Shown here: piece after piece, positions 24,796 through 39,540 of the stretch
Numbering within the stretch: the stretch's first letter is position 1
How the letters are laid out: every line of letters starts with the position of its first letter
Assembly (NCBI GenBank): GCA_021738725.1
Contig: JAIPBE010000002.1
Coordinates: forward strand, 1 to 64,000
Length of the DNA stretch: 64,000 nt
Direction of reading: 5' to 3'
From: Saprospiraceae bacterium
Lineage (GTDB): Bacteria > Bacteroidota > Bacteroidia > Chitinophagales > Saprospiraceae
The notes under the pieces: generated by a model
What the model was told of the DNA's origin: nothing
Database searches by the model: none
The model's input: the letters and a program-made list of their open reading frames with translations, nothing else
Position numbers and translations under genes: made by a program

Positions 24796-25041
24796 ATGAC
24801 TGCTATTAAAGATTCTGTAAAAACATACTTGCTGGAGGAGCTGAATCTTCCGTTGACTTCGGAAGAATTGGGTGATGATACCCCCTTATTGAGTAGCCGT
24901 TTGATCGACTCGATCTCCGCCCTGCTTCTGGTGGAGTTCCTGGAAAAAGAATTCAAAATCGAATTCAAACCTCATGAGGTCAATAATGACAATCTGGATT
25001 CCCTTCAGCTGATCGAACAATTCGTCCAGGGCAAGCAATAG
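24796..25041 (+). CDS. Acyl/peptidyl carrier protein of the halopyrrole-type cluster
   Basis: An 81-aa four-helix carrier protein. The attachment Ser is Ser39 in LIDSISALLL, which fits the (D)S(I/L) phosphopantetheine motif, and the acidic face (EELNLP, DDTPLL, EFLEKEF) is typical. It is the first gene of a five-gene plus-strand cluster and ends 5 bp before the adenylation enzyme, so it is most likely the carrier loaded by that enzyme. This corresponds to the stand-alone prolyl carrier proteins of pyrrole pathways (PltL-like). It is not the fatty-acid carrier AcpP, whose motif and neighbours differ. Confidence 0.85.
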   Translation: MTAIKDSVKTYLLEELNLPLTSEELGDDTPLLSSRLIDSISALLLVEFLEKEFKIEFKPHEVNNDNLDSLQLIEQFVQGKQ

Positions 25042-25046
25042 CCAGA

Positions 25047-26576
25047 ATGAATGAACTTCGAATCCTCATTGAGCATGCCCTGACAAAACATGCTGCTCAG
25101 ATCGCTTTAGTCGAGGAATCGGGTGATCAATTGTCCTACCAGGATCTTGACGTAAGCAGTGCCGGCGTCGCCCATCATCTTCAAGATAACGGAGTTGGTC
25201 AAGGACAATGTGTCGCCATCTGTATTCCCAAGTCTTCCGTTTCGGTAGCATGCCTGCTGGGGGCTCTGAGAAGCAATGTAGCTTACATTCCGCTTGACCC
25301 GGATGCACCTGCCAGCCGAAATGGGTATATCGTTCGCGATGCCACGGCTTCTATGGTTTTGACGACACGTGACTTTGCGAATGTCCTCCTTCCCCATATC
25401 GGATCATGTCAAGTACTTGATATCACCGTCCTCAGTGAACCATGCAAACTGCTGGTCCGCCCCCAAGTAGAAGACAAAGTCGTGAGCATTCCAGATGACC
25501 TGGCCTACATCCTCTATACATCTGGATCCACAGGTCAGCCCAAAGGGGTCATGATCACGCATCGCAATGCAACATGCTTTGTCCGATGGGGCATTGACCT
25601 ATTCCAACTTCGTTCTTCTGATGTACTCTCATCCATTGCTCCCTTTCATTTCGATCTATCTGTATTTGATCTGTATGCCGGATTGGGAAGTGGTGCAAAG
25701 ATCCTCCTCATCCGGCCAGAATCGGTTAAAAATCCGATGATCCTGGCCGAATTCATCGACCAGTTTGCCATCACGATATGGTATGCCACTCCGACCACCC
25801 TGAAAATGATGCTTCGATTTGGACGGATGAACCGGTATCACCACTCTTCACTTCGCCACATACTGTTTGCTGGGGAAGTCTTTCCGTTAGCGCCGCTGAA
25901 TGATTTGCGCTCGCGCTGGTCACATGCGGCCTTTCACAACCTGTATGGCCCTACAGAGACGAATGTGTGTACCTACTTCTCCCTTCCCAGGGAGATCGAT
26001 CCGACACAGGAGAAACCCTTCCCGATCGGAGCGTCCTGTCCATATGCCCAGTGTTTTATCGATGATGGTACATCCATATGCCCGCCCGAACCAGGCATGG
26101 TCGGTGAGTTGCTGATCGCTGGTGATTCTGTGATGGCGGGCTATCTGAACCAACCTGAACGCAATGCAAAAGCATTGCTCGTACATGATCACAACCGATG
26201 TTACCGAACCGGGGATATCGTTCAGTACGATCAGGGAGGCCAATTGCATTACATCAGCCGGAAAGACAGGATGGTCAAACGACATGGCAACAGGATCGAA
26301 CTAGGTGAAATAGAAGCGGCTTTACATGAACATCCTGAGATTACAGAGGCCGGCGTTTTCCACACCATTGCCGGAGCGGATCACAGTGAAATCAGGATCG
26401 TCGCCTGTTATGCAACAGTTGATCCGGATCAACAGCTGGCAGTTTCCAAATTGCAAACATTTCTTCAGCAATATGTACCGTCATACATGCTGCCTGACAA
26501 ATTTGTTTATTTGGCTACCATGCCCAAGACCAGCACACATAAAGTCGATTATACCGCGTTGAAAGAGAATTCCTAA
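25047..26576 (+). CDS. Stand-alone amino acid adenylation enzyme, proline-type (PltF/RedM-like)
   Basis: A 509-aa ANL-family enzyme that activates an amino acid as the adenylate and transfers it to the carrier protein. Core motifs are A3 LYTSGSTGQPKG (157-167), A4 FHFDLSVFD (200-208), A5 NLYGPTETN (298-306), A7 YRTGD (386-390), and A10 ending with Lys499. By aligning to GrsA by eye, the nine variable specificity residues are D203, L204, F207, Y246, L273, A275, L299, V307, C308, giving DLFYLALVC. From memory the L-proline enzymes PltF and RedM read DLLYLALVC, a single difference. The likely substrate is therefore L-proline. There is no condensation or carrier domain attached. It sits between the carrier gene (5-bp gap) and the flavin dehydrogenase (14-bp gap). 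Confidence 0.85.
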   Translation: MNELRILIEHALTKHAAQIALVEESGDQLSYQDLDVSSAGVAHHLQDNGVGQGQCVAICIPKSSVSVACLLGALRSNVAYIPLDPDAPASRNGYIVRDATASMVLTTRDFANVLLPHIGSCQVLDITVLSEPCKLLVRPQVEDKVVSIPDDLAYILYTSGSTGQPKGVMITHRNATCFVRWGIDLFQLRSSDVLSSIAPFHFDLSVFDLYAGLGSGAKILLIRPESVKNPMILAEFIDQFAITIWYATPTTLKMMLRFGRMNRYHHSSLRHILFAGEVFPLAPLNDLRSRWSHAAFHNLYGPTETNVCTYFSLPREIDPTQEKPFPIGASCPYAQCFIDDGTSICPPEPGMVGELLIAGDSVMAGYLNQPERNAKALLVHDHNRCYRTGDIVQYDQGGQLHYISRKDRMVKRHGNRIELGEIEAALHEHPEITEAGVFHTIAGADHSEIRIVACYATVDPDQQLAVSKLQTFLQQYVPSYMLPDKFVYLATMPKTSTHKVDYTALKENS

Positions 26577-26590
26577 TCGGCTGCAGATCC

Positions 26591-27730
26591 ATGTATTCAT
26601 TCACCCCCGATCCCGACCAGAAAAAACTACGCCAGGAAATCCTGGAGGCAGTCGCTTCCCTCCCTGGAGTATACAACGGTGGTACTTCCGGCTTCGATCG
26701 GGAAAGATGGACACGTCTTGGCGCCGTCGGAATCCCCGGGTTGGCCATTCCTGAAGTATATGGTGGCAAAGGATGTAATGCCCTCTCCACCACCATTGCG
26801 TTGGAGGCACTTGGATATGCGCATCCGGATAACGGTTTCAATTTTTCTGTGGCCGCTCATTTGTTGGCTTGTGTGGTTCCGCTTTGGCTCTATGGCTCAG
26901 AAGAGTTGAAAACGCGATACCTGCCCGGACTGTGCAATGGTTCACTGATTGCTGCAAATGCCATGAGCGAGCCCTCTTCAGGGTCTGATGCTTTCAGTAT
27001 GAAAACTACCGCCCAGACGTCAGATGCAGGATACTCGATAACGGGATCAAAGACATTTGTCAGCAATGGTCCGATCGCCGATGTCGTATTACTTTATGCC
27101 GCGACTGATCCAACACAAGGATTCATGGGCGGGATCAGCGCGTTTTGGGTTGATAGACAATTTCATACCTATGCGCGTAGCGAGCCTCTTGAGAAGGCAG
27201 GTCTGCATCACAGCCAATTAGGCAGTCTCTTCTTTGAAGAGATGCACATTGAATCTAAATATATGGTTGGATCTGAAGGCAGAGGCGCACATCTGTTCAA
27301 CCGATCTATGGAATGGGAGCGAACCTGTCTGGGTGGACTACACATTGGCAACATGCATCGCTTGATAGATCGATGTGTCCGGCATCTGCGGGCAGGATTT
27401 CAACAAGGATGGTCACGAGAGGCCCATCAAATGGCCACTTATGACCTCGCCATCATCCAAACCCAACTGGAAGCGGTGCGATTGCAGGCATATGTAGCTG
27501 CCTGGAAGATCGATCTAGGAAAGCCGGCGGGCCGCGAATCTGCCATGGCCAAACTGGCTGTCAGTGACCTCTATCAACGAGCCACTTTACGTATAGCAAA
27601 CATTTACAACGAATGCGGTGTTCAGGATCTAGATGCAGATCAATCGGTCCTGGATGCACTCAGTAGCACCCTTTATTCCGGTACTTCCGAGATGCAGAAA
27701 ACGATCATTGCCCAGTCGATGGGTCTGTAA
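26591..27730 (+). CDS. Acyl-CoA dehydrogenase-like flavoenzyme, probable prolyl-carrier oxidase (PltE/RedW-like)
   Basis: A 379-aa protein of the acyl-CoA dehydrogenase fold: N-terminal helical domain, the AMSEPSSGSDAFSM flavin-binding strand (124-137), the beta-domain phrase KTFVSNGPIADVVLLY, and the C-terminal helical domain ending with YSGTSEMQKTIIAQ (typical of the flavin pocket). The catalytic base is expected in SMEWERT (Glu241 or Glu243). Next to a proline-type adenylation enzyme and a carrier, its predicted reaction is the four-electron oxidation of prolyl-carrier to pyrrole-2-carboxyl-carrier, as with PltE and RedW. An unrelated acyl-CoA dehydrogenase is less likely because no other fatty-acid genes are near. 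Confidence 0.82.
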   Translation: MYSFTPDPDQKKLRQEILEAVASLPGVYNGGTSGFDRERWTRLGAVGIPGLAIPEVYGGKGCNALSTTIALEALGYAHPDNGFNFSVAAHLLACVVPLWLYGSEELKTRYLPGLCNGSLIAANAMSEPSSGSDAFSMKTTAQTSDAGYSITGSKTFVSNGPIADVVLLYAATDPTQGFMGGISAFWVDRQFHTYARSEPLEKAGLHHSQLGSLFFEEMHIESKYMVGSEGRGAHLFNRSMEWERTCLGGLHIGNMHRLIDRCVRHLRAGFQQGWSREAHQMATYDLAIIQTQLEAVRLQAYVAAWKIDLGKPAGRESAMAKLAVSDLYQRATLRIANIYNECGVQDLDADQSVLDALSSTLYSGTSEMQKTIIAQSMGL

Positions 27731-27751
27731 CATATGAGTCAAATTTTCAAT

Positions 27752-27783
27752 TTGATCCTTATGGCACTACTATTGTTTATTTG
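27752..27783 (+). promoter_or_regulatory. Possible internal promoter before the halogenase
   Basis: In the 73-bp gap between the dehydrogenase and halogenase genes, TTG (27752-27754) is followed after 21 nt by TTTATTTG (27776-27783), one mismatch from TAnnTTTG. It could give separate expression of halogenase and methyltransferase. Confidence 0.32.
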
Positions 27784-27803
27784 CGAATTGAATAATTAAG
27801 CCC

Positions 27804-29153
27804 ATGAAAAAGGACGTCATTATCATCGGTGGGGGCCCCACAGGCAGCAGCTTAGCCATAAATCTGGCCAGAGAAGGCCTTGATGTTCAAATCCTGGAAA
27901 AAGCCAAATTTCCCAGGGAGCATGTCGGCGAATCCATGCTACCCTATTGCTACCATATCTTCGAGGAGTTGGGCGTATTGGACAAAATGAAGCAGAACTT
28001 TTCGCGAAAACCGGGGGTCACTTTTTCCAATCCGGATGGTAGTCAAGCCTCTCACTGGTGCTTTGACAAGGTGGTGGATGGGCCATCCAGCCTTTCTTTT
28101 CATGCCAGAAGATCCGAATTTGATCAGATGATGCTGGACCATGCCCGATCAGAAGGCGTTGACGCTCAGGAAGAAATGCAAGTCATGGATGTTGACCTCA
28201 ATGCGCCTGGTGGAGGTGTCCTGGTGAAAGCCTTGCATCAAGGAAATAAAGAGGTTGAGATTTCAGGGCGATTCCTCGTTGATGCAACAGGACAGGATTG
28301 TTTTCTGTCCCGAAAACTGGGCAACCAAAAGCGATTCGAAACCCTGAATATCCGATTGGCATTGAGCGCCCATTGGACGGACGTCAAATTGACGCCGTCA
28401 CTGGCCAATGGAAATATCACCATTGTACATATTGGAGGAGAGAAGTCCGGTTGGATTTGGCTGATCCCACTGAATGATGATCGCCTCAGTATCGGGCTTG
28501 CCATAAATATGGATTATGCTCAGGAACAGCGGAAGTCACTGATGAAAGAGCATGGGGTTCGTAATTGGCAGAAAGAACTCTACCTGCAAGAAATCAATAA
28601 CGCTCCTCTGGTTAAGGAAATTATTCAGAATGGATCTATGGCCTGGGAAGTGGTCAGTAATGGAGACTTCTCCTATTATGCAGAAGCCAAATTTGGTCCC
28701 AATCATGCGATTTTGGGTGATGCTGCGGCATTCCTGGACCCTATCTTCTCCAGTGGCATCTTTTTGGGCATGCATAGCTCAAAAACAATAGCCCCAGGGA
28801 TCGTCGCCATGCTACAAAAAGGAGACCCGTCTTTGATTGAATCCGGTTATAAAAGTCTTGAGGGAGGTTATCGTGTGATTGAAGAATTGATCTCTGCGTT
28901 TTACGATCCTGAAGCCATCAACTTCCCAGAGCTTTCAGTTTCTGACGGAATGGACTTCAACCAAATGGAATCAGCATATACCGTGTATCATATGCTTTTG
29001 GCTGGTGATTTCTTTAATGACAGCGAGCGATACTTGAAAGCGATCAGTGCCCTTCGGGATTCCTCCATGATCGAGAAATACAAGAATCTGAAAGGTCATG
29101 CAGATGAGGATTCCAAAAAACTTGTGTGTGCGATAAACCCCATTCTTGCTTGA
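27804..29153 (+). CDS. Flavin-dependent halogenase, PltA-like
   Basis: A 449-aa FAD protein with the dinucleotide motif IIGGGPTGSS (7-16), the halogenase-type KFPREHVGESMLP (35-47), the WxWxIP motif at 217-222 (WIWLIP), and GDAAAFLDPIFSSG (305-318). The last two are the segments shared with pyrrole halogenases such as PltA. Lys69, in NFSRKPG, is the likely catalytic lysine that carries the chloramine or guides hypohalous acid. These enzymes chlorinate or brominate electron-rich rings on a carrier protein, using FADH2 from a separate reductase; no reductase gene is in the cluster. The C-terminal part is typical of the phenol/pyrrole group rather than tryptophan halogenases. The stop overlaps the methyltransferase start by one base. 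Confidence 0.85.
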   Translation: MKKDVIIIGGGPTGSSLAINLAREGLDVQILEKAKFPREHVGESMLPYCYHIFEELGVLDKMKQNFSRKPGVTFSNPDGSQASHWCFDKVVDGPSSLSFHARRSEFDQMMLDHARSEGVDAQEEMQVMDVDLNAPGGGVLVKALHQGNKEVEISGRFLVDATGQDCFLSRKLGNQKRFETLNIRLALSAHWTDVKLTPSLANGNITIVHIGGEKSGWIWLIPLNDDRLSIGLAINMDYAQEQRKSLMKEHGVRNWQKELYLQEINNAPLVKEIIQNGSMAWEVVSNGDFSYYAEAKFGPNHAILGDAAAFLDPIFSSGIFLGMHSSKTIAPGIVAMLQKGDPSLIESGYKSLEGGYRVIEELISAFYDPEAINFPELSVSDGMDFNQMESAYTVYHMLLAGDFFNDSERYLKAISALRDSSMIEKYKNLKGHADEDSKKLVCAINPILA

Positions 29154-29884
29154 TGGACAACGTAAACTATGGTGAATATTGGGATAGGTTCTATCACGCA
29201 ACTTATCAACAACAACCTGGAGGCAAAGCACTCTGGGATGTACCCGTACATCGTTCGGCAGCGCTTGATCTCGTAGAGATGGATCACACGCTGCCGAAGG
29301 AACTACCTCTTCTGGATGTCGGATGTGGCACTGGGGAGATCGCCTCTTTCTTTACAAAGCACTTTCCGAAGGTCATCGGCGTGGATGTTGCCCAGGGAGC
29401 AATTGATATTGCTATAGAAAGGCAGACAGACGCACATATAGACTTCAAGATCCTCGACATCACAGATGCCACTTCTTGTCTGGCACTATCTGAACAGTAT
29501 GGCCCACTGAACATTTACATCCGTGGGGTCATGCATCAGGTTGAAGAGAACCATCTTCCTCAATATGTCAACAATCTGGAGACACTTCTCGGTGGGAAAG
29601 GTGTGCTGTATATGATCGAAGTGGCCTCCGGCATTCGGGACCATTTCCTGCACCACTCCGAAGGATATCATAAGCTGCCAGCTGCAGTTCAGAAGATCTT
29701 CATCAGCAATCTACCTCCGCGGGGCGTTACTGTAGAAGGCATTGCCACACACTTTCCACCCAATAGATTCGAAATTCTGAAATCGAATCCCGAAAAACTC
29801 TTTACGAATTTGCAATCCCCGGATGGCATGGAGATCTACATTCCTGCGGTCCAGGCCATTATAAAGGCTAAAAAGTTCTCTTAG
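29153..29884 (+). CDS. Class I SAM-dependent methyltransferase of the halopyrrole-type cluster
   Basis: A 243-aa Rossmann methyltransferase with motif I LLDVGCGTGE (about 45-54), the acidic strand VIGVDVAQGA, and motif II-like DFKILDITDA. The start at 29153 is chosen because its ATG overlaps the halogenase TGA (TGATG), implying translational coupling; a longer start at 29126 would lie within the halogenase. The substrate is unknown. In context it may methylate the pyrrole carboxylate (releasing an ester), the ring nitrogen, or a hydroxyl. It closes the cluster; a lipoprotein with its own promoter-like element follows after 37 bp. Confidence 0.8.
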   Translation: MDNVNYGEYWDRFYHATYQQQPGGKALWDVPVHRSAALDLVEMDHTLPKELPLLDVGCGTGEIASFFTKHFPKVIGVDVAQGAIDIAIERQTDAHIDFKILDITDATSCLALSEQYGPLNIYIRGVMHQVEENHLPQYVNNLETLLGGKGVLYMIEVASGIRDHFLHHSEGYHKLPAAVQKIFISNLPPRGVTVEGIATHFPPNRFEILKSNPEKLFTNLQSPDGMEIYIPAVQAIIKAKKFS

Positions 29885-29921: not shown

Positions 29922-30296
29922 ATGAAAAGGTCCCTATTTTATTTCGCCTTTATGGTGATCGCCCTTGTTTTTGTCGCTTGTTCCGACTCTGCCCCTGCGA
30001 CTGAAGGCTCAGAAGCAGAAGCTCCTGCAGCAGAAGCACCTGCTGCCGCTGAACGCAATGTCAATCAAGACAATCCAGCAGAGCGTATGCTGAGCAAATA
30101 CCAATCAATGGGTCTTGAGCTCACGGAAGAGCAGGCCGCTAGTGTCCGCACAATCGCTGGTCAATATGACTTCTCAGCAACAACTGATAAGAGTGCCCGC
30201 CAGGACATGCGCACCAAAATGCAAAAGGAGATTATGGACAATGTCCTGACGCCTGAGCAAAAGGCAACTTTTGAAGCAAGTCGCAAGAAGCGATAG
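29922..30296 (+). CDS. Small lipoprotein with an LTEEQ/VLTPEQ helical unit
   Basis: A 124-aa exported lipoprotein. A signal peptide ends in the lipobox FVAC (Cys20). A low-complexity Ala/Glu/Pro stretch follows (25-45), then a helical domain (55-120). The domain opens with SMGLELTEEQ and closes with EIMDNVLTPEQ; paired LTxxQ motifs recall Spy/CpxP-like periplasmic chaperones, although spacing and sequence are not typical. The same 50-residue unit occurs twice inside the GT-C-like protein encoded at 32571-35978. It lies between the halopyrrole-type cluster and the glycan operon, with a terminator about 80 bp downstream, and has no recognised function. Confidence 0.7.
   Translation: MKRSLFYFAFMVIALVFVACSDSAPATEGSEAEAPAAEAPAAAERNVNQDNPAERMLSKYQSMGLELTEEQAASVRTIAGQYDFSATTDKSARQDMRTKMQKEIMDNVLTPEQKATFEASRKKR
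30108..30260 (+). repeat. VLTPEQ unit, copy C (in the lipoprotein)
   Basis: Residues 63-113 of the lipoprotein, a 51-residue segment beginning MGLELTEEQ and ending NVLTPEQ. It lines up with two 50-residue segments of the membrane protein encoded on the other strand at 34215-34364 and 33960-34109. Confidence 0.55.
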
Positions 30297-30376: not shown

Positions 30377-30419
30377 AAAGCCCCTGACAGATCATTGATG
30401 TGTCAGGGGCTTTTCCTTT
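30377..30419 (+). terminator. Intrinsic terminator, shared with the end of a convergent gene
   Basis: A perfect 13-bp stem (30377-30389 with 30401-30413) with an 11-nt loop, followed on the plus strand by TTTTCCTTT-like bases. It ends the plus-strand transcript of the lipoprotein. Its right arm also spells the last codons (Lys-Pro-Leu-Thr-His-Gln) of the opposite-strand GT4 gene, whose stop is in the loop. Confidence 0.75.
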
Positions 30420-31513
30420 CTGAGGGATAACAGCTCCAATAAAAGTGCCTGATACTGTCGAACAGACTCGGATAATGGAAACTCTCTGATCGGTTTCTCC
30501 TCCCATTGGTTGTTCCAGGCCTGTTGGAGAGCCTGACTGACACCATCAATGGTCAATGAATCGATCCCGACCATCTTTCCACCCACCACTTCCTTCAACG
30601 CCGTTCGCTCAGAAGAAATGATCGGCACTCCCAAGCCGACTGCTTCCGCCGCGACAAAACAAAATCCCTCGCTGTAAGACGGAACCACAATACAGGTGGA
30701 TGTAGCCACCTCATTGTACAGGTCCTGCTGGGGCAGATCGTGATAGAGCATGACTCGGTCTTTTGAAGGCCACCTGTTCACCTGGCCCATCACCCATCTG
30801 TAGAGGGCCTCAGGTACTTGGGGAATGATCAGTTTGAACTGCGCCTCCGGATGATCCTCCAGGAATCGGGCCATAGCCGGCAGGAGGAGGTCCAGTCCCT
30901 TTGAAGTACCCAAACGACCAAAATAGGTGACTGTAAATTCGGATGGAGGCTGGTGTTTGTATCCTAGAAACTTATGATAATCCAGGCCGTTATAGATCAT
31001 GGAGATCCTGGTCGAGCTGATACCACTATGCCGGAGGGCCTGCGCAGTTGCGTTGGACACTGCGATAAACCGATCAAACGGCAATCGCAATAACAATTGT
31101 TCCCACATCCAGTATGCCCCTTTCAACCAAAGTGGGGTTTGGGGAAGTCGCCACCACAATCCGGCCCATACTTCATGGAAGGTCACAACGACTGGCTTCC
31201 TTCGAAATTTAGCCGCAAAAAATGCAGGAAAGGCCGCATTATATGAGGTCGTCTGCACCAGATCAGCTTTCCCAGCCTCTTCCAATACCTTGGGAAAACT
31301 GAGAAATGAAAAGAGGTACCGATTTCGGCAATCTACCCGAATGACCTTGACCCCATCAATCATTTCTGTCGAAGGCAGGTCTGGACGAAATCTTGTCGTG
31401 ACAACCGTCACCTGGTGTTCCTTTTCGATCAAGGCCCGGGACAACTCCCAAAACAAATGTTCCGCTCCTCCGATATAGGGATAGAAATGCTCCAGTACAA
31501 AAAGAATCCTCAC
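30392..31513 (-). CDS. Family 4-type glycosyltransferase
   Basis: A 373-aa GT-B glycosyltransferase. It starts ILFVLEHFYPYIGGAEHLFWELSRAL (acceptor-side glycine loop), and has TYFGRLGTSKGLDLLLPAM in the donor domain and PSYSEGFCFVAAEAVGLGVPII, which is the EX7E-type catalytic segment. Such enzymes transfer an activated sugar to a glycan acceptor on the cytoplasmic side. The start overlaps the stop of the DUF2304 gene by 4 bp. It is the last gene of the glycan operon, and the final residues are encoded by one arm of the terminator hairpin at 30377-30413. Confidence 0.87.
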   Translation of the reverse strand: MRILFVLEHFYPYIGGAEHLFWELSRALIEKEHQVTVVTTRFRPDLPSTEMIDGVKVIRVDCRNRYLFSFLSFPKVLEEAGKADLVQTTSYNAAFPAFFAAKFRRKPVVVTFHEVWAGLWWRLPQTPLWLKGAYWMWEQLLLRLPFDRFIAVSNATAQALRHSGISSTRISMIYNGLDYHKFLGYKHQPPSEFTVTYFGRLGTSKGLDLLLPAMARFLEDHPEAQFKLIIPQVPEALYRWVMGQVNRWPSKDRVMLYHDLPQQDLYNEVATSTCIVVPSYSEGFCFVAAEAVGLGVPIISSERTALKEVVGGKMVGIDSLTIDGVSQALQQAWNNQWEEKPIREFPLSESVRQYQALLLELLSLRKEKPLTHQ

Positions 31514-31860
31514 TGCCCCTTCTGCTTTTCTTCTTCATCAAGAGCAAGTCTTCTGGTCAAGGCGGTCAAGGCAGATTGCTGCTGTTTGAACAAAAGGAAG
31601 AGCTTGTATTGAAAGAAAAATATCAGTCCCAGACAAAAGAAAATAACCGCATTGATATTGCTTTTGATCCCGAAAACTTCGGCAATCGTCTGGGAAATAA
31701 GATCTGGGAAAAAGGCAAAAAAGATAACAGCGACCCAAAAGAATACGCCCACCATCGCTTCCTGCCAACCGGACTTACCGGCCCAGAAACGCTGCAATAA
31801 ACTGCTGATAAAAACAATGGAAACAAGCGGTACAATGATTTGATATAGTTCCAGCTGCAT
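31510..31860 (-). CDS. DUF2304 membrane protein
   Basis: A 116-aa protein with three membrane helices (about 5-24, 36-56 and 68-90) and a charged C-terminal tail (KQQQSALTALTRRLALDEEE). The size, the topology and the position right after a family 2 glycosyltransferase gene fit DUF2304, a family that regularly accompanies polyprenyl-phosphate sugar transferases; the biochemical role is unknown. It lies 7 bp after the GT2 gene and overlaps the next GT4 gene by 4 bp. Confidence 0.8.
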   Translation of the reverse strand: MQLELYQIIVPLVSIVFISSLLQRFWAGKSGWQEAMVGVFFWVAVIFFAFFPDLISQTIAEVFGIKSNINAVIFFCLGLIFFFQYKLFLLFKQQQSALTALTRRLALDEEEKQKGQ

Positions 31861-31867
31861 GATGGTA

Positions 31868-32560
31868 TTATTTGGGATGTGAGACTAATTTCCAGAGGAT
31901 GTTCATGGCCGTGTTGATACCCATATACAAGTCCTGTCCTTTGCTCATAGAATATGCCGTGTAAACAACGCGAATGGGCACTTCGGCGATCTTCAACCCT
32001 TTTTTCTCACCCAGGATGATCATCTCGCTGCAATAGCCAAAGCCGTCTATATGCAAATCAATTGTCTCGATGGCAGTCCGGTTAAGCATCCGAAATCCAG
32101 ACTGGGTATCCGAATACCAGCGAATACAAAACCAGTTGGTGAAGACATTCGACAACTTGTTGTATATCACCCGGATAGCCGGAATATCCTTATTTGGTCT
32201 CATAAAGCGACTTCCAATCACAATATCCGCTTTCTCCTCTTCCATGGCATCACTCAAGCCACGAATATCTTCAGGATAGTGTTGCCCATCTGCATCGATC
32301 TGCACGATAAAGGCGATCTGATGCTTTCTTGCATATGCAATGCCCGTTTGAGCACCTGCACCAGCTCCGCGATTGACGAGATGAGAAACCACGATGGCCC
32401 CGGCCTTTCTCGCCTCTTCACATGTTTGATCGGCAGAGCCATCGTTGATTACGAGGACATACGGATAGCCTTCATCCCTGACGCGACGTACCACATCAGC
32501 AATGACCGTACCTTCATTATAGGCCGGAATCACAACCAGTATGTCTTTAGGCTCGATCAT
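31868..32560 (-). CDS. Family 2 glycosyltransferase (polyprenyl-phosphate mannosyl/glucosyltransferase type)
   Basis: A 230-aa soluble GT-A enzyme: LVVIPAYNEGTVI (9-21), VINDGSADQTCEEA, and the metal-binding QIDADGQHYPEDI around residue 90. It lacks membrane helices. The dolichyl-phosphate mannose synthase-like group makes lipid-linked single sugars, which GT-C enzymes then use as donors outside the membrane. This fits the GT-C-like gene 10 bp upstream and the DUF2304 gene 7 bp downstream. Confidence 0.88.
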   Translation of the reverse strand: MIEPKDILVVIPAYNEGTVIADVVRRVRDEGYPYVLVINDGSADQTCEEARKAGAIVVSHLVNRGAGAGAQTGIAYARKHQIAFIVQIDADGQHYPEDIRGLSDAMEEEKADIVIGSRFMRPNKDIPAIRVIYNKLSNVFTNWFCIRWYSDTQSGFRMLNRTAIETIDLHIDGFGYCSEMIILGEKKGLKIAEVPIRVVYTAYSMSKGQDLYMGINTAMNILWKLVSHPK

Positions 32561-32570
32561 TCAGGTTTAC

Positions 32571-35500
32571 TCAATTCTCCATTTTCGTGGCTAATTCAAA
32601 TAGGATAAACGTTCCAGGAACAGTTGTTTTACCCCCCAACCCTGGTTTGCCGGGCCATACTTTGTCACCTACTTTTGTAGTCGGCACAGCCGGATCTTCA
32701 ATGAAGTTATCTGTATAGATTGGCGTAGCCAGGGGCGAGTCAAAGAGAAGCATCAATACCTCATCTGCCTTTTTCGCCAACGTCTGCTCCGGTGTCAAAT
32801 CTGTTCCTGCCAGGTTGACGTTGTACAACACATATTTGAACCCGTTGTCTATGAGCTTTCGAATAAAATCATTTTTATCCGTCATTTTTTTACTGAGCTC
32901 CATATAGATCCCTAACTGATTGTCCTCCAGAACACGTTTGTCATTCTGAAGAATATGGTAGTTGAGGTGGGTACCGATCCGATAGATCTTGGTGGACGGA
33001 TCTTCATTCATCTTTTGGATCGCCTCCGCCATGTACGGTCGGAATAATCCGAGACTCTTTTCAGCTGTCATGTTTGAAGATGCATACTGCAGGAAGGGCG
33101 ACTGGAATATGAGCCTAGCCCCATCCTGATTTTGCGTCGCACTGACCAGAAAGAGGGACAGGCAAAGCACCATCGATGTGCCAACCGCGATGCGCCACCA
33201 TTTCGTCAATAGAGCCTTGGGCAACTCGGGATACCATTCATGCAGGTGATCTGTCAGCCAGATGATCAGGAGGAAGCCCATCATAAACAGAATGAATCCA
33301 TACCAGATGATGGTATTACTGAAGAAAAACCACAACCCTCCGAAGGCCAGAGTGATCACAAAGAAGTTACCGAACGCTTCTGGGAGACGGGCAATTTTTT
33401 CCCTCATCAACCAGGCTGCCAGGCCGAATAGGACCAGGATGATGATATAGGTTTGGAGAAAACTCCAGTCGGCCATCCACTGATACAGGGCATTGAGGCT
33501 ATTGCCGAGACTGACGAGCATCGTTTGTAACGGTATAAAGATCATTCCCGGCAATGCCGCCAAACCACTTAAGGGTTCTCCCATCTGACGGAGAATGCTA
33601 TCATGCAATAACGCAGGATCCAACCGGGTGTCCAGGGGATACAATGACAAGACAGAGATTAACCACAAACCCAGGAATCCCAGAGCGACGATGACATTGC
33701 GATACCAGGTTCGTCCAAAGAACAAAAATGGTAAGAGCAGAAGAAACAGAAAGGAAATATCCAGGTATCGAGAGAACGGAATATTCATATTCATCGTCAT
33801 ATCATACGGAACAGAAAAGTAGAGAGGGGCGCCGGCTTCAAAGCCGAGGTACCGCCGGATCTCCTCCCGCTTCGTGCCCCCGAAAAAGGAGGCTTTCACC
33901 GGATGTTTCCCGAGCGCCTGTGCCAATGCACCCTGCTTTTTACCCGTGGCCGCTTCATATTGCTCACTGGTCAGAACCGTATTGAAGATATCCTGTCGCA
34001 ATGTGGCCAATCGTTTTCGACGCTCCATCTGATCTTCGACCATGACATCATTCCCCCGCAGCAATGAAACCACCTTGTTTTTTTGTTCAGAATCCAATGA
34101 AATACCTCTTCGCTTGAGGCTTTCAATAATCAATTCACAACCCATGGAGATGTCTTCCTCCATAGCGTCGTAATCCAATCCAAACTGATTGATGGACGAT
34201 TCGGAGATCTGCCTTTGTTCTGGTGTCAGCACATTCTGAATGATCTGATCTCGAGCCAGTTGTGATTGTGCTTCCACACTGGAAGAATCTGTTTTACCAG
34301 TGATGGTTTGGGTGAGAATTTGATCTGAAATTTGTCGTTGCTGCGCGTTCAGCTGCACGCCCATATTTTCCAGAGAGCTGTACAGCACACGCTTTTGGAA
34401 TTCCACCATCGATTCCTCACCCTTATCATCTAGATTCGCATCCAGGAGAGCGGTGGGGTTACGGCCAACCAGCAGGTTGTTGACACTGACGGTTTGATGT
34501 TCTGAAACGTTCTTGACCATCCAGGGTGAAAACGACAAAAGAGCAGCCAGAGCGAACCCGCCAATGGCCATTCCGATTGGAGCCAAACCCTTTGGACTGC
34601 GGATCGCCGCCCAGACCAGAAGTGGCAGTCCCAGCCCGAACCCGATCATCGCGAAGATGGTAGGGGGAGTATCGCCGAGTTCCATATAGCCAAACTGGTC
34701 GATGCCAACGAGAAATAATCCACCCAGGGCGGTGAAGAATAATCCCGCCGCTCCGCGCCATCCCCATTGCCAACGAAACAACATGGCCATTAAACCGATC
34801 ATGAACATGACGGCAGTATACTTGATCCCGAAGGCATATCCGCTCAACCATCCGGCGAGGATCCAGGGTAACCATTGAGGAGATGCTCCCTTCTGATTTG
34901 AACCAGACGCATCCTCTGGCGCACCAGCCGGCTGCCGCATATCCAGCAGCAAGAGAATGGCCGTCAGCAGGATAAACAAAAAACCTAGGTCGACTTTGGC
35001 ATCATGAGCCGCGTGAAACGAAAACGCCGGATTGACATAAAACAATGCCACGGCCAACCAGGAGCTTTGCTTGTTCAGGACGGTGCGCGCCAGACGGTAA
35101 AAGGCGAATACACAGAGAAGCATGGCACTGTGAGACAACATGATGGAGACAGATACCGACTGAAACATCAACTCACCAAGACTGGTCCATAATGGCCAGC
35201 CATCGGCTTGCCCGCCGGCTATCAATCCTCCATATTGAGCGATCAAATGAGACCGGTTCATGTACAGACTGACAGCATCAAACCCGATCGGAAAGGCTTT
35301 CAAAGCCGTGACTTGGTTGAAGGCTACCGCGATCAACAACATCATGATCGGGATGATCCCCCACCCGGAGGTCACTCCTTTTTTGATGGGCGCCCAAAAG
35401 AACTGTTTTAACACGTCCATCACCATGCGGTAACGTAAGGCTACTGGTAAGAGCGTGAGCCCCCATAACACCCATGTATTCAGGCCACCCAACATACCCA

Positions 35501-35978
35501 GTATCACCAGAACAAATCCGGTGACACTCAAGCCGACGGCCAGATTGATCACCATGGTATTCTCCTTCCTGATCCCGGATGGGAGAAGCCTCATCAGACT
35601 GTCACCAATCGCGATTTGAACCAGAAATAAATATGCGACAGCACTGTGAATGAACAGGTTAAAGCCAAGGAAATAAGGTATGTGCGTTGCTGCACTATCG
35701 GAAAAAACCTTTTCTCGCGAAGCATACATCAGGAAGATCACCATTTCCAGAAACAGGACAAAGGCATAGATCATCCAACCCCTGACAGGGGTTTTTCTGG
35801 ACCGCAAGATCCACCAGGCACCACAAGCAAGTCCAACCAAAACCACCAGAATGCTCACATTCGGCAGGTCCTGAATGACCAGACCGTAATAAGGATGAAA
35901 TCCCCAATAACTAAAAAGCACCAGGATGGTCCAGATCGCTCCGAACCCGATTATCAGCCATTTATTTACATTTTCCAT
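32571..35978 (-). CDS. Large GT-C-like membrane glycosyltransferase with soluble VLTPEQ insertion
   Basis: A 1135-aa multi-pass protein with about 12 N-terminal membrane helices in residues 1-490, a soluble insertion (about 495-735), more helices (about 738-930) and a soluble C-terminal domain (about 945-1135). The first external loop after the eighth or so helix (PIGFDAVSLYMNRSHLIAQYG, from 230) carries Asp234 and resembles GT-C enzymes such as ArnT/PMT relatives that use lipid-linked sugars, but I cannot place it in a named family. The insertion contains two copies of a 50-residue unit ending VLTPEQ/VLTSEQ at residues 539-588 and 624-673. It is the third gene of the glycan operon, 70 bp after GT4 and 10 bp before GT2, which probably supplies its donor. 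Confidence 0.72.
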   Translation of the reverse strand: MENVNKWLIIGFGAIWTILVLFSYWGFHPYYGLVIQDLPNVSILVVLVGLACGAWWILRSRKTPVRGWMIYAFVLFLEMVIFLMYASREKVFSDSAATHIPYFLGFNLFIHSAVAYLFLVQIAIGDSLMRLLPSGIRKENTMVINLAVGLSVTGFVLVILGMLGGLNTWVLWGLTLLPVALRYRMVMDVLKQFFWAPIKKGVTSGWGIIPIMMLLIAVAFNQVTALKAFPIGFDAVSLYMNRSHLIAQYGGLIAGGQADGWPLWTSLGELMFQSVSVSIMLSHSAMLLCVFAFYRLARTVLNKQSSWLAVALFYVNPAFSFHAAHDAKVDLGFLFILLTAILLLLDMRQPAGAPEDASGSNQKGASPQWLPWILAGWLSGYAFGIKYTAVMFMIGLMAMLFRWQWGWRGAAGLFFTALGGLFLVGIDQFGYMELGDTPPTIFAMIGFGLGLPLLVWAAIRSPKGLAPIGMAIGGFALAALLSFSPWMVKNVSEHQTVSVNNLLVGRNPTALLDANLDDKGEESMVEFQKRVLYSSLENMGVQLNAQQRQISDQILTQTITGKTDSSSVEAQSQLARDQIIQNVLTPEQRQISESSINQFGLDYDAMEEDISMGCELIIESLKRRGISLDSEQKNKVVSLLRGNDVMVEDQMERRKRLATLRQDIFNTVLTSEQYEAATGKKQGALAQALGKHPVKASFFGGTKREEIRRYLGFEAGAPLYFSVPYDMTMNMNIPFSRYLDISFLFLLLLPFLFFGRTWYRNVIVALGFLGLWLISVLSLYPLDTRLDPALLHDSILRQMGEPLSGLAALPGMIFIPLQTMLVSLGNSLNALYQWMADWSFLQTYIIILVLFGLAAWLMREKIARLPEAFGNFFVITLAFGGLWFFFSNTIIWYGFILFMMGFLLIIWLTDHLHEWYPELPKALLTKWWRIAVGTSMVLCLSLFLVSATQNQDGARLIFQSPFLQYASSNMTAEKSLGLFRPYMAEAIQKMNEDPSTKIYRIGTHLNYHILQNDKRVLEDNQLGIYMELSKKMTDKNDFIRKLIDNGFKYVLYNVNLAGTDLTPEQTLAKKADEVLMLLFDSPLATPIYTDNFIEDPAVPTTKVGDKVWPGKPGLGGKTTVPGTFILFELATKMEN
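33960..34109 (-). repeat. VLTPEQ unit, copy B (in the GT-C-like protein)
   Basis: Residues 624-673, a 50-residue segment beginning RGISLDSEQ and ending NTVLTSEQ. Its length equals that of copy A and is one less than the lipoprotein copy. Confidence 0.55.
34215..34364 (-). repeat. VLTPEQ unit, copy A (in the GT-C-like protein)
   Basis: Residues 539-588, a 50-residue segment beginning MGVQLNAQQ and ending QNVLTPEQ, preceded by SLEN as copy B is preceded by SLKR. It matches copy B and the lipoprotein copy at both ends. Confidence 0.55.
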
Positions 35979-36048: not shown

Positions 36049-37233
36049 CTAGTGTGGTGGTACAGAATGGATTGACTCCTGATCCGATGGAGCTTCTCCC
36101 ATCCAAAGAGCCTTCAATCTCTGGATAAATTCACGAGCATGGATATCCCAACCAAATGCTGCAGCGCGCTCCAGACAAGCCATCCTTAACTGGATGCTAT
36201 CCCGGTCCGGGAGATGAGCCAATTGGATCATACTTCCAGCAATGCTTTTTTCATCCAGGGGGTCGACATACCAGGCCGTATCTCCGCCCACCTCCGGCAG
36301 GCTGGATACATTTGAACAGATGACAGGACAACCGCAGGCAAATGCTTCCAGAACAGGCAGTCCGAAGCCTTCATATTCCGATGGATAAACCAATCCAATT
36401 GCAAGGGAATACAATGCCGTCAGCTGATGCTGGGAAACGTACCCCGTCAAGAGAATATCCGCTCGAAAAGGATGGTGTTCCAGCGCTTCAAAAAAAGGTT
36501 CAGATTTCCAACCGCGCTCACCGACAATGACCATACACACTCTTGCATCATGGCTCTCTCGGAAAAGCCGATAAGCCTCTAATAATCGGACCAGGTTCTT
36601 TCGGGGCTCAATGGTTCCTACTGCCAACCAAAATGGTGAGGTGATCTCTAAATTCTTCAATACTGCCGTATCCTCTACACGCTGCATAGACGGGTCATAT
36701 CCCAATAATATCGATGCCACTTTACCTCGGGTAAACGGAAAAAAACGACGGATATCGTCGGCTGTATAGGTTGAATTGGCGACAATGAGCGATGCTTTGG
36801 ATAAGATCCTTTTCAAGAAAATACGTTGTAACCATTGGCTGTGGAACCGATGATACTGCGGAAAGAGCAAGGGCGTCAAATCATGAATGACCGTCACCCG
36901 CTTGATTCGTTTGGGAAGATTGAATGGTCCGAAATGGGCCGGTTCGATCACCGCATCCACCCGGTTCCACCAGAGAATGAATGGCACGATCAGAAAGAGT
37001 CGTACCGCAGCCAATCCAAGCCCGATCCGGATATTGGGGATTACGATCTGACGCATACCTTGCAAATGAGGATCTCTTTTTTCACGCAACAGGAGAAACT
37101 CCAGATCTCCCGGAGAGGCGAGGAGCAGGCCCTTGACCAATTCACGTGTATAGACATGCACACCCCCCTTCTGATTGTCGATGGAATCAGCAATAATGGC
37201 GATACGCTTCTTATGATGCATGGTCTGAGTCAT
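36049..37233 (-). CDS. Family 4-type glycosyltransferase
   Basis: A 394-aa GT-B enzyme. It begins RIAIIADSIDNQKGGVHVYTRELVKG, a glycine-rich acceptor loop, and the donor domain has VGTIEPRKNLVRLLEAY, LTGYVSQHQLTALY and PSEYEGFGLPVLEAFACGCPVI (EX7E). The closest relative in the window is the C-terminal half of the sulfotransferase fusion upstream (EPRKNL and EGFGLPxLEA in both), so these two may add successive, similar sugars. Its start codon overlaps the stop of the fusion gene by 4 bp. It lies 70 bp before the GT-C-like gene. Confidence 0.88.
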   Translation of the reverse strand: MTQTMHHKKRIAIIADSIDNQKGGVHVYTRELVKGLLLASPGDLEFLLLREKRDPHLQGMRQIVIPNIRIGLGLAAVRLFLIVPFILWWNRVDAVIEPAHFGPFNLPKRIKRVTVIHDLTPLLFPQYHRFHSQWLQRIFLKRILSKASLIVANSTYTADDIRRFFPFTRGKVASILLGYDPSMQRVEDTAVLKNLEITSPFWLAVGTIEPRKNLVRLLEAYRLFRESHDARVCMVIVGERGWKSEPFFEALEHHPFRADILLTGYVSQHQLTALYSLAIGLVYPSEYEGFGLPVLEAFACGCPVICSNVSSLPEVGGDTAWYVDPLDEKSIAGSMIQLAHLPDRDSIQLRMACLERAAAFGWDIHAREFIQRLKALWMGEAPSDQESIHSVPPH

Positions 37234-39287
37234 GAGCGTTCACCGATATCAGCCCGATTCGATTCGATGATCTGCTGATAGATATTCAAGGTTTGAAAGG
37301 CCGTCTTCAACCAGGAGAAATACCATGATCTCTCCAGTGCCTTTTGTCCCAATTCCTGGCGGAGGCTTGCATCGTCAACCACTCTGGCCATACATCTGGC
37401 AATATCCTCCGGTTGTGAAGGGTCTGCAGGTAACCCACCCTGTGCGATGATTTCAGGCATCGCGCTATTCTGACCGTAGATCACCGGTGTTTGGCAACGC
37501 ATGGCCTCCAGAGGAGGAAGGCCGAATCCCTCATAATACGCTACATAGCAAAGCGCTAAAGCATGGTGGTACAACAGGGGAAGGTCGTCATCCAGGACAT
37601 GTCCTGTAAATATGATCCGATCGAATCCAGGTGCTCGGGCATCTGCCAAATCCTCTAACTTCCACCCTCTCCGTCCGCAAATAACCAGGTAAACATCAGC
37701 ATACCGAGGATCTTTGGCAAGAGACAGAAATGCCTGGATCACATGTTTGAGATTTTTTCGTGGCTCCAGAGTAGACAGGCTGATCAGATATGACCCTAGA
37801 GGGAGTCCGTAACGATGTCGGATCTCATTCCATTCCTCTTCGTTCTGCTGTGGCCTGAAACGATCGCCATTGGCAGCCTCATAAACAGTGTGGATACGAT
37901 CCGCCTGGATGCCATATACCTGGATGAGATCCTGGCGGGTGCATTCTGAAACAGCGATCACGGCACTCGCTTTTTCACGGATGAAATCCATCCCTTTTTC
38001 GGCCAGATCGATGTTTTCCTTTTCGTGATATTCCGGAAAGAAATGGTGGGTCAGATCATGTGCCGTCACCACGAAGGGCAGTTTGAATGGCTCCACCAGG
38101 AAGGCATGCTGAGGCAGTGGAACATGCATCAGTTGATGGTTCCTGCCCGCTTCCTTCCACACCTTCCGGTATTGTTCTTTGATGGTGCCTCCCCGAATCC
38201 AACTCAGTACCCTTCGTACTGGCAGGTCCCGATAGATAGGACTCAACCGGTTGTACCAGGACTCCGGAAGTGTCTTCTGAATGAACGCTTTGAAGGCTAG
38301 AAGAGACTGTTCAAAAAAACCTTTTTTCAAAGCGAATAAGCCCAGCTGCCTTTTTTCCGCCTCCCGGCGTTCGATGATCTTGCCATAATATTGGTCCAAT
38401 GGAAAGATCTTGCCGTTGACCAGTACATCGATACGCCACTTGTCAGGAAGGCGATGCTGAAACGCCCGAAGCCCCCCGATCAACTCCTCTGTATACCGAC
38501 GAATCCCATCCATATGCAGGTCCGTCATCTTGTTCCCTTCGATTAGAATGCGGTATGGGTCAATGACACCCGATGCCTTCTTTTCTGCCCAGGCTTCCCC
38601 GATCGGACCTCTGGTGTATCCCATCTGGTCCATCACTTCGCCATGCAAATCCCAGAACAGAGCCTCCAGCTCGGGAGGCATTTCATCTTTCCATCCACCT
38701 GCAACGCCCCGTCTGAAGTTCTTTTTAGCCAGGCGAGCCACTTCATCTGAATCGACTTGTGCAACCCCGGCTCCATAGTGCGGCGTTCCAAACTTCAAGT
38801 CCTTGAAGGTGGGCAGCTTATCCAGATTGGGTTCCCCCAGATCCATAAACTCACGCAGTTTCTCAATCTCTCGAATAGGGTCCGCAATCAAATCTTCAAA
38901 ACGGATCACGACGTCGGCTACTTCTGTCCAGGCTTTGACATTTTCAGACCAGCCCCCGAAAAAGCTCCCATCCATGGCCAGGATGGCTTCCAGTAAATTG
39001 AGCTCGTAGTCAGTGCCCGGCTGGACGATGTCTTTTCGATGGTGCGCGATGGAGACCAGCGCGTCGCGCCCTTCCCGTACGATGTAGACCTTTTTTATGG
39101 ACGGATCGGAGGGAACCAGTTGGTGTGGTAGAAGATGGGTCTTGATCACCGGATAGGTCGCATAATCCGGTTCCAGGGGATAGTTGACCTCCTGGTGATA
39201 GGTGCTGGACTCAATACCATACACCTCATAGAGCACATTCCGAAAGAATGTGTTCCCAGAACGCGGAAAGGAAGCGAGCCAGATCAT
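37230..39287 (-). CDS. Fusion of a PAPS sulfotransferase and a family 4 glycosyltransferase
   Basis: A 685-aa two-domain enzyme. Residues 1-235 are a sulfotransferase: the 5'-phosphosulfate loop is SFPRSGNT (6-13), the 3'-phosphate motif is VYIVREGRDALVS (67-79, Arg71 and Ser79), and GGWKDEM lies near the end. Residues about 255-685 are a GT-B glycosyltransferase with MDGIRRYTEEL, STLEPRKNLKHV and YEGFGLPPLEAMRCQTPVI (EX7E). It would transfer a sugar and sulfate the product, using PAPS in the cytoplasm. The start at 39287 gives MIWLASFPRSGNT directly; earlier codons up to 39467 read poorly and lie upstream of a good -7 element at 39343-39350. It is the first gene of the six-gene glycan operon. 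No PAPS synthesis gene is in the window. Confidence 0.85.
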   Translation of the reverse strand: MIWLASFPRSGNTFFRNVLYEVYGIESSTYHQEVNYPLEPDYATYPVIKTHLLPHQLVPSDPSIKKVYIVREGRDALVSIAHHRKDIVQPGTDYELNLLEAILAMDGSFFGGWSENVKAWTEVADVVIRFEDLIADPIREIEKLREFMDLGEPNLDKLPTFKDLKFGTPHYGAGVAQVDSDEVARLAKKNFRRGVAGGWKDEMPPELEALFWDLHGEVMDQMGYTRGPIGEAWAEKKASGVIDPYRILIEGNKMTDLHMDGIRRYTEELIGGLRAFQHRLPDKWRIDVLVNGKIFPLDQYYGKIIERREAEKRQLGLFALKKGFFEQSLLAFKAFIQKTLPESWYNRLSPIYRDLPVRRVLSWIRGGTIKEQYRKVWKEAGRNHQLMHVPLPQHAFLVEPFKLPFVVTAHDLTHHFFPEYHEKENIDLAEKGMDFIREKASAVIAVSECTRQDLIQVYGIQADRIHTVYEAANGDRFRPQQNEEEWNEIRHRYGLPLGSYLISLSTLEPRKNLKHVIQAFLSLAKDPRYADVYLVICGRRGWKLEDLADARAPGFDRIIFTGHVLDDDLPLLYHHALALCYVAYYEGFGLPPLEAMRCQTPVIYGQNSAMPEIIAQGGLPADPSQPEDIARCMARVVDDASLRQELGQKALERSWYFSWLKTAFQTLNIYQQIIESNRADIGERS

Positions 39288-39342
39288 GAACGGTTTTTTG
39301 GGTGTCACTTTGAGAATGCAAAAACTCAGCCACACCCCGTTA

Positions 39343-39350
39343 CAAATGTA
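39343..39350 (-). promoter_or_regulatory. -7 promoter element of the glycan operon
   Basis: TACATTTG on the minus strand matches TAnnTTTG perfectly, about 55 bp before the chosen start at 39287. The surrounding sequence is AT-rich. No TTG is present at 20 nt upstream. Its position supports the shorter start of the sulfotransferase fusion. Confidence 0.42.
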
Positions 39351-39540
39351 AAATATTTTAATACTTATAGATCGCAGATCCGCCGGGACAACCGGGATGC
39401 CAGGAAGGCTGAACATTAGTGCTTTATCAGAGAATGGGGTCCAAGCGAGCGCATCAAGCCCTGTCAATAAGAATCAGCAGTCATGCTGAACCCATTCAAA
39501 TGGCAATACCAATCCTCCTCTCATCTCTGGCTTATGGCAC

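Follow-up and report, generated by a model that had tools for sequence, protein, structure and literature searches.

The five co-directional genes that an earlier note on this DNA had listed are all present and complete on the forward strand at 24796–29884 of the window, the 64,000-nucleotide stretch analysed here, which derives from a 4.18-Mb MAG of a Saprospiraceae-like member of the Bacteroidota. They encode a carrier protein (CP), a stand-alone adenylation enzyme (AD), a predicted prolyl-carrier dehydrogenase (DH), a predicted flavin-dependent halogenase (HAL), and a SAM methyltransferase (MT). The gaps from CP through AD and DH to HAL are 5, 14, and 73 bp, and the HAL stop codon overlaps the MT start in TGATG. 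The host genome has only one copy of this cassette and also contains a PPTase gene; a scan for promoter patterns upstream of CP gave no match. A small lipoprotein gene (29922–30296) with a weak LTXXQ match adjoins the cassette.

CP (24796–25041, forward strand; 81 residues) scores above the cut-off of PF00550 (E 8.4e-6), and its matches in the PDB include PltL and PigG. Its phosphopantetheine site reads LIDSIS, with DSIS or DSVS kept in the relatives. AD (25047–26576, forward strand; 509 residues) matches the AMP-binding family (E 8e-76) and TIGR01733 (353 bits), and aligns with the PltF-type ligase of PDB entry 6o6e at 302 bits. The specificity pocket of AD, with positions taken from an alignment to the PheA motifs, is D-LFYLALVC-K, an exact fit to the consensus L(L/F)YLALVC published for stand-alone L-proline ligases, whose characterised members include PltF, RedM, and CloN4 (PMC3874040). 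The ligases of the related cassettes carry DL[LF]Y[LFNH]ALVC in every locus (L numbers; genomes, G numbers) but L047, where DLHYHALVV is found. AD is predicted to load L-proline on CP, in line with the proline-type adenylation enzyme of the earlier note. DH (26591–27730, forward strand; 379 residues) shows acyl-CoA dehydrogenase domains and keeps, together with its relatives, the Glu residue in SMEWER; it scores 333 bits against the NCBIfam PigA model (equivalog cut-off, 500) and 300 bits against the RedW model (equivalog cut-off, 650). Its top PDB matches are a prolyl-ACP dehydrogenase (4irn) and a prolyl-PCP dehydrogenase (5zw0), and these nearest solved relatives support the oxidation of prolyl-carrier that had been proposed for the acyl-CoA-dehydrogenase-like enzyme. 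As far as pyrrolyl-CP, the chemistry of the cassette is thus well predicted.

HAL (27804–29153, forward strand; 449 residues) matches Trp_halogenase (E 9e-25), and its top PDB matches are CmlS, CndH, and PltA, followed by 5bva and 5buk. It contains IGGGPT, WIWLIP, and FLDPIFSSG, as well as Lys69, which is common to PltA, Mpy16, and CmlS. The class motifs of flavin-dependent halogenases are GxGxxG, WxWxI(P), and Fx.Px.Sx.G, and WxWxIP has been reported as preventing monooxygenation (PMC12871659). All three are present in the halogenases of the type-1 relatives, save for WIFVIP in L049, and they are also seen in other flavoproteins of Bacteroidota. In a halogenase tree built without Bmp2, PltA, Mpy16, and ChlB4 group tightly in one clade, and HAL falls outside it; HAL and its relatives (a Bacteroidia MAG, a Saprospiraceae MAG, and a Bacteroidota MAG being nearest, with 84%, 67%, and 61% identity) make up their own clade with a support of 1.0, and its join to the PltA clade has a support of 0.64. 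The 'PltA-like flavin halogenase' of the earlier note therefore holds, by motifs and lysine, as a halogenase-type flavoenzyme, but not as a member of the PltA clade. HAL likely halogenates; the number, position, and halide of the halogens are not readable from its sequence, and an AlphaFold model made with four sequences had a pLDDT of 43, too low for use. A second halogenase type, ~30% identical to HAL, occupies the slot after DH in L052, L053, L058, and L180, and in L052 and L058 DUF3179 genes lie downstream of it.

MT (29153–29884, forward strand; 243 residues) matches PF13649 (Methyltransf_25; E 5.8e-9). Its start is most likely the ATG at 29153, and a GTG at 29126 was set aside, because the ATG gives the TGATG overlap with the HAL stop codon and a protein of the same length (243 residues) as the homologues in L060 and L062. 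The gene follows HAL in L047, L060, and L062, whereas none is found after HAL in the other cassettes; its substrate may be the pyrrole group or a sugar. A search for the gene order in related genomes recovered CP-AD-DH-HAL, recurring in several families and hence not a chance arrangement, with the fifth gene in only some of them; some of the recurring cassettes end at contig ends.

Beyond the lipoprotein gene, an island of glycan genes extends on the reverse strand. It consists of a GT4 glycosyltransferase (30392–31513; PF13439, E 9e-30), a DUF2304 membrane protein (31510–31860; PF10066, E 1.3e-17), a GT2 glycosyltransferase (31868–32560; PF00535, E 3.5e-21), a multipass membrane protein of 1135 residues (32571–35978) that is GT-C-like by eye and has no Pfam match, another GT4 glycosyltransferase (36049–37233; PF00534, E 1e-27), and a sulfotransferase-GT4 fusion (37230–39467; PF00685, E 6e-18, and PF00534, E 7e-28). 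The 1135-residue protein is syntenic in the islands of L046, L047, L048, L050, L060, and L062; its internal LTxEQ-like repeats resemble, by eye, the lipoprotein at 29922–30296. The full-length sulfotransferase-GT4 protein was found, among 100 relatives, only in the 11 genomes with a type-1 cassette. In the relatives, the islands contain further sulfotransferases as well as an ABC exporter of the Wzm/Wzt type. The glycan made by these genes is probably sulfated. No thioesterase, PKS/ketosynthase, or NRPS was recognised beside the cassette in the window or in the loci of the type-1 relatives. The host genome has a second glycan island (L136:1985-9351, G000 contig C5) with a Wzm/Wzt-type exporter, sulfotransferases, and a third copy of the MBOAT-SGNH gene described below, without a second cassette.

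Two tandem paralogues with 57% identity, encoding proteins of 841 and 840 residues (39713–42238 and 42287–44809, both on the forward strand), follow these reverse-strand genes within the island. Pfam PF03062 gave no match to either, and their MBOAT identity comes from profile–profile comparison: in hhalign, a profile of 32 homologues aligned with genomic PF03062 MBOATs over 407 columns (Prob 98.4; E 7.9e-15), with His341 in register with the MBOAT histidine. The C-terminal part is of the GDSL/SGNH type, Lipase_GDSL_2 being matched in four of four members (E 1.8e-4 in the first paralogue, and down to 6.8e-7 in homologues), with the scores of the window copies below the gathering score. His341, Tyr525, Tyr526, Ser609, Asp803, and His805 are invariant in 32/32 sequences, and their equivalents are kept in a Microvirga homologue. 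The two tyrosines belong to an invariant GYY located between the membrane and SGNH parts, which differs from FXYXXF, the shuttle motif of DltX (PMC12148441). From these sequence features, the proteins are identified as MBOAT-SGNH fusions that would combine the functions of DltB and DltD in one chain. An assignment of these ~850-residue neighbours as MMPL-type exporters of a flexirubin-like cluster was ruled out by NWFLHGYQW, the GDSL-like C terminus, and the hhalign result; an AlphaFold model of the fusion (four sequences) reached a pLDDT of 48, too low for use. Five MBOAT-SGNH copies occur in the island of G033 (L129:3880-14275 with L047:15354-17930), which suggests that a single glycan is acylated at several sites or with several cargos.

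Within the window, 10 kb separates the fusion genes from the cassette, and the two belong to different transcription units; their association was surveyed in other genomes. Of 100 relatives, 14 carry the cassette and 13 the fusion, the latter always together with the cassette (Fisher p about 2e-15; 1e-10 at the genus level), p-values that, like those given next, treat genomes as independent of shared ancestry. In a phylum sample of 395 genomes, the fusion is present in four, all within the seven strongest matches to the prolyl-carrier dehydrogenase (p 3.5e-8), top scores alone being used since the NF045652 search over the phylum returned mostly ordinary acyl-CoA dehydrogenases. Of 244 genomes from a different class, nine contain the fusion, and eight of these are the very genomes that have the DH clade (p 3e-14). 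That the link recurs in distinct families and classes, and in a second phylum, is a better argument than these p-values. Ordinary MBOATs are found in 34 of 40 genomes without a link to the cassette, so the link is specific to the fusion. The pairing is looser in G127, where fusion and DH are megabases apart on one contig, and in G577, which has the fusion but lacks the DH clade. Three Bacteroidota loci (L024, L025, and L026 in G314, G298, and G160) combine a strong match to the prolyl-carrier dehydrogenase with a ligase-like gene in the absence of the fusion, and probably represent a different pathway.

In L051, L053, L174, L178, L179, and L180, the fusion and CP-AD-DH(-HAL) form operons, often with the fusion as the first gene (HAL of L051 is cut by the contig end, and L179 is cut inside DH), and L134 shows fusion and CP before its contig stops within the ligase. 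In L051, L053, L134, L174, L179, and L180, the fusion and CP genes are immediate neighbours with the same orientation. A search of 72,556 plasmids yielded a single good match to the fusion, on pMVF16-2 of Microvirga sp. VF16, ~3 kb from the best-scoring DH match of the collection and accompanied by CP and a ligase with the DLFYLALVC pocket. Around it are genes for Wzy, Wzz, a bacterial sugar transferase, and glycosyltransferases, which mark the region as an exopolysaccharide locus, and no halogenase was found near this cassette. The stretch L181:10867-17136 of the plasmid, with DH-AD-CP and the divergent fusion, is unannotated in the PLSDB table. Cassettes beside the fusion without a neighbouring halogenase are also seen in L174 and L178, and G055 and G099 have the fusion without the sulfotransferase-GT. 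In G349 (L124:137-6977), another copy of the fusion is co-directional with an AMP-binding ligase, a PaaK-like ligase, a carrier protein, and a chorismate-pyruvate-lyase-like gene, a set that one would expect for a fusion accepting aromatic acyl groups from carriers in general; it is possible that this locus is a 4-hydroxybenzoyl version of the acylation machine.

The analysis shows by computation what the genes are, which proline pocket and catalytic residues they encode, and that cassette and fusion co-occur and share operons. Based on these results, we consider it probable that the operon and the fusions together attach (halo)pyrrole-2-carboxylate in ester linkage to an exported glycan, in the manner of Dlt. 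The reactions and their order are all inferred, as are the halogen and the identity of the acceptor as a glycan. AD would load L-proline on CP, DH would oxidise prolyl-S-CP to pyrrolyl-S-CP, and HAL would halogenate the pyrrole ring while it is bound to CP; MT would perhaps methylate this group or a sugar. The MBOAT part of the fusion would then take the acyl group from CP on the inner side of the membrane and hand it, perhaps via the invariant tyrosine pair of GYY, to the extracytoplasmic serine of the SGNH domain, which would esterify a hydroxyl group of the glycan made by the neighbouring genes. The pyoluteorin- or bromopyrrole-type pathway of the earlier note is accordingly kept up to (halo)pyrrolyl-CP; its end product and context are read instead as surface-glycan acylation, because of the glycan-export island and the link to MBOAT-SGNH acyltransferases.

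A free halopyrrole metabolite, for which an unlinked thioesterase would serve in release or an unlinked synthase in extension, with the glycan genes as bystanders, would suit the four enzymes, which fit a known natural-product set, and the orientation of most island genes in the window on the opposite strand; since the type-1 cassettes read have no recognised thioesterase, ketosynthase, PKS, or NRPS beside them, and the cassette has fusions as neighbours in Bacteroidia and a second class as well as in an alphaproteobacterium, in many cases within one operon, we regard such a product as quite improbable. The fusions may instead be plain acetyl-CoA O-acetyltransferases of the glycan that are co-inherited with the cassette and not fed by it, as acyl-CoA is the presumed donor of the MBOAT/SGNH systems apart from Dlt (PMC12148441) and the sulfotransferase-GT is co-inherited too. 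The fusion, however, tracks the cassette across glycan contexts and phyla, including G055 and G099 with no sulfotransferase-GT, directly adjoins the CP gene on the same strand in the six loci named above, and is paired in G349 with another carrier and aryl-acid-type genes, so that little weight is given to plain acetylation.

It is also conceivable that the flavoenzyme is not a halogenase but, for example, a monooxygenase, the cargo being plain or hydroxylated pyrrole-2-carboxylate. The fusion-linked cassettes without a neighbouring halogenase (L174, L178, and Microvirga) are compatible with such a cargo, and the motifs, occurring in other flavoproteins as well, are by themselves no proof of halogenation. 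However, HAL has the WxWxIP motif reported to prevent monooxygenation (PMC12871659) in addition to Fx.Px.Sx.G and the lysine common to PltA, Mpy16, and CmlS, and we judge a non-halogenating enzyme to be unlikely.

A wider reading, on which our judgement is evenly divided, is that a widespread carrier-fed transmembrane aryl-acylation machine puts aromatic acyl groups on surface polysaccharides: halopyrrole-2-carboxylate here, unhalogenated pyrrole in some genomes of a second Bacteroidota class and in Microvirga, and perhaps 4-hydroxybenzoate in G349. If acylation by the cassette and fusions is true, the proline-to-halopyrrole carrier chemistry of antibiotics and pigments would also serve the building of the cell surface, the fields of pyrrole/halogenase biosynthesis and Dlt-type envelope acylation would become joined, and MBOAT-SGNH transferases would accept aromatic cargo from carrier proteins, with a fused architecture added to those described. 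Genome mining for halogenases that assumes a free product would then mislead. Microvirga sp. VF16 is a cultured alphaproteobacterium that would have the pyrrole version. We know of no earlier biologically halogenated bacterial surface glycan, and a halopyrrole-decorated glycan would be the first. In the open-access papers searched, we found no halogenated or pyrrole-bearing bacterial polysaccharide, no halopyrrole pathway of Saprospiraceae, and no carrier-fed (halo)pyrrole glycan-acylation system of this kind.

Among known systems, Plt (PltL/PltF/PltE/PltA) and Bmp1-4 resemble the cassette in having a carrier, stand-alone L-proline ligase, prolyl-carrier dehydrogenase (predicted in the cassette), and flavin halogenase, and the prodiginine systems RedM/RedW and PigI/PigA resemble it in all but the halogenase. 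In contrast to all of these, the cassette has no recognised thioesterase or synthase nearby, a halogenase clade of its own, a glycan island, and the link to MBOAT-SGNH proteins. In coumermycin and clorobiocin (CouN/CloN genes), the pyrrole-2-carboxyl group ends on a sugar hydroxyl, but the transfer is soluble, and its acceptor is the deoxysugar of a small molecule instead of an exported glycan. PatA/PatB, AlgI/AlgJ/AlgX, and WssH/WssI likewise modify an envelope or exported glycan by means of an MBOAT and an SGNH serine transferase, but as separate proteins with an acyl-CoA donor and no carrier (PMC12148441), and the AT3-SGNH fusions of the OatA type also join a membrane transferase to SGNH in one chain, but with an AT3 instead of an MBOAT domain and an acetyl donor (PMC12148441). 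Dlt is the known MBOAT/SGNH pathway fed by a carrier protein, and the MBOAT/SGNH systems described to date have MBOAT and SGNH on separate proteins (PMC12148441). Teichoic acid D-alanylation by DltA, DltC, DltB/DltX, and DltD similarly combines a stand-alone ligase, carrier, MBOAT, and SGNH on a surface polymer. The present locus is not a Dlt system, because AD falls below the cut-off of the DltA equivalog TIGR01734 (295 bits against 560) and the predicted cargo is another one, L-proline that would be modified to (halo)pyrrole on the carrier. It differs further in that MBOAT and SGNH are joined in one chain, no DltX was noticed, and the host is not a teichoic acid host.
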